Shown here piece after piece: positions 2,386-4,625 of a stretch of DNA of 35,388 nucleotides. The DNA comes from Acidobacteriota bacterium. Lineage in GTDB: Bacteria; Acidobacteriota; Terriglobia; Acidiferrales; UBA7541. The notes beneath the pieces were generated by a model, which ran no database searches, had not been told where the DNA came from, and saw only the letters and a program-made list of their open reading frames with translations. The number at the start of each line of letters is the position of its first letter. Position 1 is the first letter of the stretch. The stretch covers positions 1 through 35,388 of the forward strand of contig QHYE01000016.1 of NCBI GenBank assembly GCA_003224055.1, given 5' to 3'. The translations under genes were made by a program, and so were the position numbers.

Positions 2386-2632
2386 GGCTGCCTCCTTCGT
2401 TGTGTGGGGATGATCGTTGGGCTTTCACCATTCCGTCGCGGATCACGCTACGTATGTGGCGGCTCGGGTCGGCCGGGAAATCGATCTTCGAGCCACGACT
2501 TTCCGTAGTTCGGTCGCGTCAGTCAGTGAAGGGCGAAGAGACTAGCACAGTTGTTGGTCCGGTGCATTAAATCCTGCTAGGTCGCCTAATCGGAAACCGA
2601 CCCACTTACCCGGTTCTCCAAATCGGATTTAA

Positions 2633-2740
2633 GAGAGGTCCTTCGTCGCGATGCTCCTCAGGACAGATTTCCTTATCGGAAATAGGAGAGATCCTTCGAC
2701 TCGCACGCTCGCTCAGGACACGCATCCTCATCGGATGCGT
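2633..2740. repeat. Two tandem intergenic hairpin units
   Basis: Unit 1 (2633-2683) and unit 2 (2686-2740) share GAGAG[G/A]TCCTTCG, then CTCAGGACA, then a hairpin. In unit 1 the stem is ATTTCC/GGAAAT with loop TTATC (2667-2683). In unit 2 the stem is ACGCATCC/GGATGCGT with loop TCATC (2720-2740). Stem sequences differ, but each is perfectly self-complementary. A related CCTAATCGGA lies at 2585-2594. The GATCCTTCG...CTCAGGA core resembles dispersed intergenic repeats of Acidobacteriota genomes (recollection, not checked). Confidence 0.75.
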
Positions 2741-2778
2741 GGTTAACCATAACACCCCCCACCCCCCATGTTTTTTGT

Positions 2779-2833
2779 AAGTGTGGATTCTGAAGGATTT
2801 AGGTTTACTGTAACTTCTTTAGAATCAACACTT
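2779..2833. repeat. Long imperfect inverted repeat
   Basis: AAGTGT (2779-2784) pairs with ACACTT (2828-2833), GATTCT (2786-2791) with AGAATC (2821-2826), and GAAG (2792-2795) with CTTC (2814-2817). The apical loop is about 18 nt. The decamer TTGTAAGTGT occurs at 2775-2784 and again at 2844-2853. There is no poly-T tail, so this is not a standard intrinsic terminator. Confidence 0.65.
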
Positions 2834-3046
2834 GTGAGGTGGCTTGTAAGTGTTGCATTTAAATGGGTTAGGGCGGAGAGGGCGAGAGAGCAAGAGTGCA
2901 AAAGCGTAAAGGTGTAAGAGTGCAGCCGTCGGCAAAGGTGAAGCGGCATGCGGACACGCGGTCCTTATCGAGTGTGGCCGCAGAGCGGCCAACCGGGCGA
3001 AGAGAGGACATGGGTGGCTCCGGAAAGTTGAGATGGAAATGAAAAA

Positions 3047-3065
3047 GCCCCGGTGAAACCGGGGC
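3047..3065 (-). terminator. Rho-independent terminator for the TonB-C gene
   Basis: A perfect 8-bp stem GCCCCGGT/ACCGGGGC closes a 3-nt loop. Read on the minus strand it is followed by TTTTT (bases 3042-3046 are A on the plus strand). It lies about 170 nt downstream of the stop of the gene ending at 3239. Confidence 0.85.
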
Positions 3066-3122
3066 GGAGTACTGAACAAGAGAGTTATACGGGATGAGTT
3101 ATATAACAGTCAAATGAAAATT

Positions 3123-3195
3123 GGGCGAAACGGGAGGAGCAGCGCACAAGCGGCGGAGAAACAAGGCGATGGGCAGTTTGGAGGGGAACAAGTCA
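3123..3195. repeat. Left copy of imperfect direct repeat flanking the TonB-C gene
   Basis: These 73 bases align with 4445-4518 with about 12 differences including one gap, in the same orientation. Both contain ACAAGGCGA and CAAGTCA at matching positions. The two copies bracket the TonB-C gene together with its upstream region. Confidence 0.75.
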
Positions 3196-3238
3196 AAACC
3201 CGCAGCTCTTAAACCGAAGGCAGCGGTACGCGCAACGG

Positions 3239-4363
3239 TTAGCGGATATTGAATATAACTTGAATGGCTACTTGGCAAGTGACGGGAGTACCGTCGGGCC
3301 CATCAGCGGGCTTAAACCACCAGTTTTTGACCGCCACAATGGCTTGCCGTTCCAGTCCGGAGCCAGGTCCCTTCACTACCTGAACGTTTTCCGCTCGGCC
3401 GTCCGCAGTTACGACAACCTTCAGAACAACGATTCCACCGATCTTGGCCTTGCGCGCTTCTTCGCTGTAAGAGGGTTGCGGGCAGTAGACGCAACGGGGC
3501 GCTGTAACGCCATCGATGCCAGCTTGTGCGATTCCGGCCGACGGCAACCCGGGTGCCCCGCCCATGTTAGTGCCAAGAGCACCGTCCGGCTCTCCGGAAC
3601 CTTGAGCCGCTAGGCGCTGCACCGTTTCCTTGAAGAGCTTATATTCGTCCGAGATGGCGAAAAGTGCGGCGTCCGGCTCCTGCCTCACAAGCTCGGTGAC
3701 GCGAACCGTCTGCACACCGTAACGGGGATCTGTGCGCTTAGTCAGTAGATTGATTCTGAGGTCTTCGGAATACCAGTATTCGGTGACAATGGTGAGGGGA
3801 CGGTCATTGCCGAGCGCGCCCGGTCCGTAGGTTTGGCTAACCCGCTCTCTGCGAACGGGAAGCCCCTCGATAGTATCGGAGCCGACGTTCTCCTTGGAAG
3901 TTTCCGGTTTACTGAACGCAGTTTGCGCGGAGGGAGCGGCCGTTGGAACTGGTGAGCCTACAGTCCATTGCCTTGCCGTTTTGGTGAGGGGGAATAGGTT
4001 TGTTCTGGTTCTTGTGGAGGGGTCGTAGAGTTCAATGCGCGTTAATCTGGGTTCCGCACCCTCGACGGGATTGATCCAGTTTCGCGCCTCGTTCCGCGTT
4101 CGTCCCAGGTGATCGCGAGCGTCAAGGTTGTAGGTTTTGTGCGTGATGAGGGTGCCGTCCTGGAGCTGATTGACCAGTTCAAGCTCGACTTTGGCGGAGA
4201 AAGGCAGGCCGGACACCGCGGGAATGTGCTCGCCGTACATCCACTCGGCAACCCTTCCGTCTCCGGGAGTGCTGACGGTAGAGGTGACGGTCGATTGAGA
4301 AAAGCCAGCCCGTGCGCAGCAGAAGGCAAAAAGGACGACTAAGAGCCTGAGCGGAACGCGCAT
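3239..4363 (-). CDS. Secreted protein with TonB C-terminal domain
   Basis: The start is ATG 4363, with GGGAG 8 nt upstream. The product is 374 residues with a signal peptide (LRLLVVLFAFCCARAGFSQ). Residues about 25-270 are a beta-rich periplasmic region without a family I recognise. The last 85 residues match the TonB C-terminal domain: PSYSEEARKAKIGGIVVLKV, then a conserved VVKGPGSGLERQAIVAVKNWWFKPA. Such domains transmit energy to TonB-dependent outer-membrane receptors. Here there is no N-terminal membrane anchor of the usual TonB kind and no ExbB/ExbD nearby, so the protein may instead be a stand-alone envelope protein using the fold. Many Acidobacteriota carry several such paralogues (family knowledge). 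A terminator follows at 3047-3065. Confidence 0.85.
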   Translation of the reverse strand: MRVPLRLLVVLFAFCCARAGFSQSTVTSTVSTPGDGRVAEWMYGEHIPAVSGLPFSAKVELELVNQLQDGTLITHKTYNLDARDHLGRTRNEARNWINPVEGAEPRLTRIELYDPSTRTRTNLFPLTKTARQWTVGSPVPTAAPSAQTAFSKPETSKENVGSDTIEGLPVRRERVSQTYGPGALGNDRPLTIVTEYWYSEDLRINLLTKRTDPRYGVQTVRVTELVRQEPDAALFAISDEYKLFKETVQRLAAQGSGEPDGALGTNMGGAPGLPSAGIAQAGIDGVTAPRCVYCPQPSYSEEARKAKIGGIVVLKVVVTADGRAENVQVVKGPGSGLERQAIVAVKNWWFKPADGPDGTPVTCQVAIQVIFNIR

Positions 4364-4518: not shown

Positions 4519-4532
4519 GGCGACGGAAAATT

Positions 4533-4625
4533 GAAATCAGAAACTAGAAATCAGAATTAGGAAAAAGTCGGGCCGGGAGAATCGAAACTAGAAACTAGAA
4601 ATCAGAAATTCGGAAAAAGCCGGGC
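4533..4625. repeat. Two-copy tandem repeat of about 41 bp
   Basis: Copy 1 (4533-4573) and copy 2 (4584-4625) both read GAAA..GAAACTAGAAATCAGAA, then GGAAAAAG[T/C]CGGGC, with internal AGAAACTAGAAATCAGA reiterations. It is an A/G-rich intergenic repeat. No gene is seen in 4364-4651. Confidence 0.75.

Follow-up and report, generated by a model that had tools for sequence, protein, structure and literature searches.

Two-hairpin repeats dispersed in a genus of gp2 Acidobacteria, with copies that start at the stop codons of upstream genes

Two consecutive intergenic hairpin units lie in a 35,388-nt stretch of acidobacterial DNA (hereafter the window), which forms contig C84 in a draft genome of 4.53 Mb. 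Their stems differ in sequence and are both fully paired, and the question that the locus raises is whether the fold has been kept by selection and, if so, on which strand and in what setting. Here, we compare the units with their copies in this and related genomes, and weigh what the hairpins may do.

The tandem units and their copies

Direct reading of the sequence places two tandem units at 2633-2740 with a period of 53 nt, and Tandem Repeats Finder, run on the window, reports 2622-2735 with period 53 and 2.1 copies. Two matches to the pattern TCCTTCG-N3-20-CTCAGGA are present in the window, where 0.01 would be expected. The initial annotation had described two tandem units with common flanks and with stems that differ and yet pair fully, and both parts of that description hold. 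The features, as read from the sequence, are:

2686-2740, minus strand: unit a (class A); covariance model match 2686-2753, 62 bits
2692-2718, minus strand: hairpin 1 of unit a (TCCTTCG..CTCAGGA)
2720-2740, minus strand: hairpin 2 of unit a (ACGCATCC-TCATC-GGATGCGT), with arms ACGCATCC at 2720-2727 and GGATGCGT at 2733-2740
2633-2683, minus strand: unit b, the tandem copy; covariance model match 2633-2683, 26.1 bits
2639-2663, minus strand: hairpin 1 of unit b (TCCTTCG..CTCAGGA), with a GAGAGG flank
2667-2683, minus strand: hairpin 2 of unit b (ATTTCC-TTATC-GGAAAT), with arms ATTTCC at 2667-2672 and GGAAAT at 2678-2683
2617-2632, no strand: putative remnant of a further hairpin 2 (TCCAAATCGGATTTAA), without a full stem; 1-mismatch match to the core

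The GAGAGA flank of unit a (2686-2691) is UCUCUC when read on the minus strand, and GTTAAC is absent beside unit b. The stem-loop ACGCATCC-TCATC-GGATGCGT folds better than every one of 200 shuffles, whether as RNA or as DNA; as DNA, hairpin 2 reaches -8.4 and -6.5 kcal/mol, again with 0 of 200 shuffles as good. A third core had also been proposed. Its letters are present at 2584-2594, but they lack the flanks of a unit, and the five 1-mismatch matches to TCCTNATCGGA in the window stand near the shuffled level (1.9 by shuffling, with 2 of 100 shuffles reaching five), which does not establish this core as a unit.

Copies elsewhere, whose scarcity the initial annotation had named as grounds for refutation, do exist. 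A covariance model built from six hand-picked copies, which contains GTTAAC and hence favours class A, gave 19 matches in the window's own genome and matches in 28 of 36 genomes of the genus (E <= 0.05), while the simpler pattern TCCTTCG-N3-20-CTCAGGA was present in 35 of the 41 genomes searched, other families included. In six loci from other families, hairpin 1 (GTCATCCTGAGCG..CGAAGGATCT) stands alone with the same sequence and flanks, and hairpin 2 is absent (by eye); such hairpin-1-only copies occur within the genus too. The short repeat GTCATCCTGAGCG..CGAAGGATCT is probably widespread in other phyla. The units themselves are a two-hairpin repeat dispersed in one genus of gp2 Acidobacteria.

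Nested and tandem palindromes are seen among the copies, and the loop of hairpin 2 varies (TCATC, TTATC, TTACC, TTCGTC, TTCATC and others), so that the invariant part is narrower than the core previously taken as constant. Degenerate short repeats (such as GTGACTGGTGACTCGTGA and GGAAAATGGAAAATGG) border several copies (L010, L016, L061, L096 and L232), and in some copies further small palindromes lie within hairpin 1 or in the interval from hairpin 2 to GTTAAC.

Both hairpins are kept by paired changes

We aligned 89 copies taken from 88 selected sources, namely the window plus 87 out of 281 loci. In this alignment, which was fitted to the structure, 94.2% of cells are paired, compared with 73.9% after shuffling and 33.7-48.7% in slid controls; 0 of 500 shuffles did as well, and all 16 of the 16 pairs show changes on both sides. 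Because the alignment was fitted to the structure, we also ran a structure-free anchored test on the 27 of 89 copies that have the sequence anchors (19 distinct arm pairs). Pairing was 7.16 of 8 within copies and 5.74 across copies, and 4.25 against 3.48 of 5 in a corresponding test of class B units (25 units, 12 distinct arm pairs), with 0 of 20000 permutations reaching the observed value in either test; the copies share ancestry, so these permutation counts are not strict probabilities. Both hairpins are thus kept by paired changes, selection on pairing is well supported, and the excess of compensatory changes that had been set beforehand as the test of the proposal is present.

The functional strand is probably the minus strand. 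In the 61 of 89 copies whose hairpin 1 could be cut out by a simple pattern (28 were unparsed), the RNA energy of this hairpin is lower on the minus strand in 58, with means of -8.74 and -6.33 kcal/mol for the minus and plus strands, a difference that may owe something to G.U pairing on the strand richer in G. For the two window units, the corresponding values are -4.4 against -3.5 and -7.0 against -2.1, and by inspection hairpin 1 on the minus strand has room for tandem G.A/A.G steps. Two results stand against this. Hairpin 1 of unit a shows no better folding than its shuffles on one strand or the other (z 0.76 and 0.36), and for the 206-nt stretch as a whole z is -2.36 when the plus strand is folded and -0.68 for the minus strand.

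Class B units at stop codons

Outside the window, the first base of many copies coincides with the stop codon of a gene that runs on the strand of the copy. These are class B units, which lack GTTAAC and typically read, in the sense of the unit, TGAC-arm-loop-arm-GTCATCC(T/C)GAG... They were collected from 36 genomes with a pattern that fixes the outer arms (TGAC and GTCA) and the start of hairpin 1; TGA is therefore present by construction, and the result lies in its being an in-frame stop. Of 63 pattern rows in the loci examined, 24 without an inner palindrome were set aside and 39 kept, from loci that cover part of the places where the pattern occurs and that were in some cases chosen for their palindromic look and not for gene context. 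In 19 of these 39 units, the first triplet of hairpin 2, TGA, is the in-frame stop of the upstream predicted gene, compared with 17 of 558 other TGAC occurrences in the same loci and, with these hairpins taken on the opposite strand, 2 of 38. Orthologues are counted among the 19 (S10 twice and a sigma54 activator three times), and three of the 39 (L325, L337 and L339) lack the loop of the unit and are probably chance palindromes, one of which belongs to the 19. The remaining 20 units do not close a coding frame by the rule used. Class B copies from the model-based search, a set of 44 that includes some worn class A copies, behave similarly: where an upstream gene ends within 50 nt, it lies on the strand of the unit in 11 of 12 copies, and in 9 of those 11 the first triplet of the hairpin is itself the stop.

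Ten genes that end at class B units were scanned against Pfam, of which two match no family and eight match DAHP synthase, sigma54 activators (two), ETF-QO, S10 (two), MsrA and 3-hydroxyisobutyrate dehydrogenase. Between the end of the domain and the stop there are 1-3 residues in ETF-QO, MsrA, 3-hydroxyisobutyrate dehydrogenase and the sigma54 activators, and these genes are therefore not truncated at that end. One stop-codon unit was seen in the window's own genome (C93, L267), behind a gene of low coding score, and the units of the window are not on the stop codon of any intact gene.

The gene rpsJ offers a comparison within the genus. It was found in 29 of 36 genomes and has the unit at its stop in four (G008, G004, G049 and G020); the 25 genes without the unit end in TAA (15), TGA (7) or TAG (3), and the end of the protein is the same or nearly the same in all 29. 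The units of G008 and G004 have 9 bp stems, both paired, that differ by a T-A to C-G swap, and those of G049 and G020 are imperfect, with one mismatch and unequal arms, respectively. In G008 and G049 the unit lies inside the rpsJ-rplC gap of 154 and 147 nt, a position seen in two of the four cases, as the L3 start was not found in the G004 and G020 loci. Genes for rpsJ with and without the unit in one genus are natural pairs in which to compare what a stop-codon hairpin may do to termination, operon balance and RNA decay.

We favour the reading, at a probability of roughly 55%, that the units are REP-like repeats acting as folded RNA 3'-end elements and selected for their structure. Action as RNA is suggested by the strand-specific placement at stop codons, together with the position of other units on the 3' side of promoter-bearing elements (described below). 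Transcribed from the minus strand, the order would be hairpin 2, hairpin 1 (UCCUGAG..CGAAGGA) and then UCUCUC. In RNA, the hairpins may stop 3' exonucleases, slow ribosomes at the stop codon, or both, and would thereby determine how stable the RNA is and how much product the upstream gene yields; the repeats would spread as DNA, and the pair in the window would mark where a decayed copy of an element with promoter, boxes and ORF has its 3' end. The absence of a U-tract and the rpsJ-rplC position (two of four rpsJ cases) argue against strong intrinsic terminators, and we prefer control of stability or of translation termination to control of transcription termination.

The REP-like character that the initial annotation had suggested applies in the broad sense, as these are multi-copy extragenic palindromes with stem covariation, and a preference for gene 3' ends is seen in class B only; it does not extend to membership of the GTAG or CGTC superfamilies. 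As those superfamilies are portrayed in excerpts of PMC3733652, they share with our units small palindromic repeats, compensatory stems and a location near gene 3' ends, whereas the units have two dissimilar hairpins, a TGA stop inside the stem and no unpaired GTAG or CGTC tag. Head-to-tail tandems, present here, are absent, under-represented or negligible in the GTAG/CGTC REP families, and GTAG REP termini often provide a TAG stop codon to flanking ORFs (PMC3733652, same excerpts). By eye, a GTAG tag at the hairpin base is not regular in the 89 copies, whose bases are of the GAGAG/CUCUC-, UGA- or GUUAAC-type. The combination that marks the CGTC superfamily (an unpaired CGTC or TGTC/CCTC tag, an 8-9 bp stem, a 4-5 nt loop and a CCA-type tail) was not found in the units; stem and loop sizes do resemble those of CGTC REPs, and in some copies CGTC is present, but solely within the stem, where other copies have AGTC or GGTC.

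The 19 own-genome matches are few for a REP family, given that PMC2817692 puts such families usually above 100 copies per genome. For REPs of E. coli that lie no more than 15 nt from a stop codon, ribosome stalling and lowered translation are reported (PMC12306157). These likewise place a hairpin close behind the stop codon, whereas here the hairpin begins at the first base of the stop, with another sequence and in another phylum. Among the titles and abstract openings that searches of the open-licence literature listed, none describes these units. On our best reading, the units are REP-like elements in an unusual stop-codon and composite setting.

The composite element and the competing readings

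The initial annotation was right about the two tandem units and missed, besides the stop-codon setting, a larger composite element that extends beyond them to about 3240. Its parts in the window are:

2740-2879, minus strand: U-block, with GTTAAC at 2742-2747, a C/G-tract at 2755-2767 and three AAGTGTTG-type boxes (+,-,+); from nhmmer, dispersed copies and alignment
2826-3011, minus strand: broken member of the family of small ORFs with a Cys/His motif; 64% identical to the copy in C110 (query residues 1-55)
3047-3065, minus strand: terminator-like hairpin with a T-run, between the promoter-like site and the ORF start; 1 found against 0.6 expected in shuffles, weak alone
3084-3113, minus strand: promoter-like site TTGACT-18-TATAAC, in element sense; 10/12 matches, 1 of 50 shuffles as good
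3120-3240, minus strand: left-end block common to C110 and C23 (GCTGCGGGTTTTGACTTGTTCCC..); from sequence comparison

The window U-block scores 4e-38 in nhmmer, with a profile of own-genome copies that includes the window copy. The ORF copy has an internal deletion and two stops inside the match, and a stricter promoter scan does not list the site at 3084-3113. Hairpins like that at 3047-3065 are seen by eye in C110 and C131 and are suggestive of attenuation. A left-end hairpin, of type GGTGCCCCATCC..GGGTGGGG or GGTGCCGCACCCT..AGGGTGCGGGTTTTGACTT and with variable stems (by eye), lies upstream of promoter-like sites in the window (3120-3240, minus strand) and in L271, L226, L268 and L085.

A query with the wider element gave 66 matching pieces in the window's own genome, where 41 distinct U-blocks were placed, any overlap with predicted genes being 30 nt at most. 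A 134-nt consensus was found in 23 of 46 genomes, all of them in the genus (23 of 28) and none among the 18 outside it. Copies of the U-block are dispersed, mostly non-coding and about 100-300 nt long, as are MITEs and RU elements (PMC2229807, PMC2759123), but the element differs from these in carrying a promoter-like site. MITEs and transposon ends are recognised by terminal inverted repeats, target duplications and empty sites; here, sites with and without a unit are seen for class B, at rpsJ. With at least 10/12 matches to TTGACA-N16-18-TATAAT required within 420 nt upstream in element sense (the minus strand of the window), and 40 of the 41 copies used, 22 of the 40 have such a site; the antisense strand has one in 2 of 40, and shuffles in 2%. 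The copies form subfamilies that share this promoter-like region. Unit a of the window adjoins the 3' side of this element, which has the promoter-like site in other copies.

Several other accounts of the U-block were rejected. Across the 41 U-blocks, the upstream gene has orientation + in 17 and - in 13 and is missing in 11 (downstream, 18, 19 and 4), and this lack of orientation preference speaks against 3'-UTRs of neighbouring genes. An RNA structure of the boxes was discarded, as just one of 13 predicted pairs shows a double change in 22 copies, in which the boxes are conserved in sequence without covariation (covariation term 0.02). Translation through the U-block (..GGGGCYG* in three copies) was rejected by eye, because the length of the G-tract shifts the frame and one other copy has TAG in that frame. 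No empty site was obtained for the window, as G046 and G008 also carry the U-block beside the TonB gene, and the window insertion therefore looks old.

The small ORF family has invariant Cys/His residues. Among 34 distinct ORF loci, the U-block is on the 3' side in 19, 18 of them in one orientation, on the 5' side in one and absent in 14; in an overlapping set of named ORF loci, it lies close behind the ORF in 9 of 22. The named records with a linked ORF are from gp2 Acidobacteria, 'Candidatus Acidiferrum typicum' and others, and would be members of the window's genus. The ORF matches no family in Pfam or PHROGs and has no credible match in NCBIfam, and its low-confidence fold model (pLDDT 72.7, pTM 0.36) matched no solved structure at E <= 0.001. 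With its 41 own-genome U-blocks and an ORF of no known family, the promoter/boxes/ORF element is a candidate new mobile element of Acidobacteria. In L062 (own genome, C23), an antisense gene, YjbR/MmcQ-like by eye, stands between the left-end block and the U-block in place of the usual ORF.

This organisation gives some weight to the possibility that a transposon-like element ends in the hairpins of the window units, which its ORF protein would recognise, the copies at stop codons being by-products. The 3' position and nearly uniform orientation of the U-block behind the ORF, boxes conserved in sequence and not in structure, and the upstream promoter-like sites all fit, and 17 of the 19 own-genome unit matches adjoin a U-block (the exceptions being the class B unit of C93 and unit b of the window). 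We nevertheless hold this reading to be doubtful, since a unit match is missing from 24 of the 41 own-genome U-blocks and a U-block from class B units, the GTTAAC in the model itself favours class A, and the ORF has no credible family match and no solved structure matched at E <= 0.001. An equally tentative picture is that the composite represents a new type of mobile transcription unit, with a sigma70-like promoter, either a short leader or a small protein with the Cys/His motif, three inverted boxes to which this protein would bind, a G-tract, GTTAAC and structure-selected hairpins, the hairpins also travelling alone and docking precisely on stop codons, where they would supply the TGA.

It seems unlikely that the hairpins matter as single-stranded DNA, folded and cut by a tyrosine (HUH) or other transposase in the manner of REP/IS200-type elements, with the RNA form incidental. 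Y1_Tnp genes do occur in 28 of 36 genomes of the genus, hairpin 2 is stable as DNA too (the energies given above), some copies include palindromes in tandem or nested within one another, and TIR-flanked tyrosine transposases occur in Acidobacteria according to an excerpt of PMC3733652. We examined 40 Y1 loci, a subset of the Y1 genes that includes seven chosen for nearness to a U-block or unit. A U-block lies within about 2.1 kb of the Y1 gene in 11 of the 40 (5 of the 33 not chosen for nearness) and within 200 bp in one, and four loci have unit matches, none within 700 nt of the gene; around the single Y1_Tnp gene found in the window's own genome, about 2.5 kb are free of U-blocks and units. 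Y1 genes in these loci are thus not closely flanked by units or U-blocks as in REPtrons or TIRtrons, and the RAYT/TnpA gene that the initial annotation had suggested looking for is not supported beside the repeats, another difference from GTAG REPs. The variation of stems between copies would leave shape alone to be recognised, and the strand-specific placement at stops (19/39 against 2/38) suggests RNA. A looser neighbourhood of Y1 genes and U-blocks is conceivable. The nearness of U-blocks to Y1_Tnp (L285 and others) may exceed chance.

That the units are bidirectional or intrinsic transcription terminators is improbable: class B does sit at gene 3' ends and a pyrimidine tail does follow hairpin 1, but this tail is UCUCUC, with no U-run and hence not the GC hairpin plus U-tract of an intrinsic terminator, a terminator scan of 2400-3300 shows none at the units, and the G008 and G049 units are placed in the rpsJ-rplC gap.

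A scan of the window against Rfam 15 at gathering cut-offs gave no match, and in ten copy-bearing loci at E <= 0.5 a sub-threshold match to mir-489 fell on one U-block (27.7 bits, cut-off 61). The Acido-Lenti-1 RNA (RF01687, 51.5 bits) lies at L224:1108-1153 (own genome, C94), about 900 nt outside the element. The window also holds a purine-rich tandem repeat at 4525-4625, with a period of 51 and two copies.
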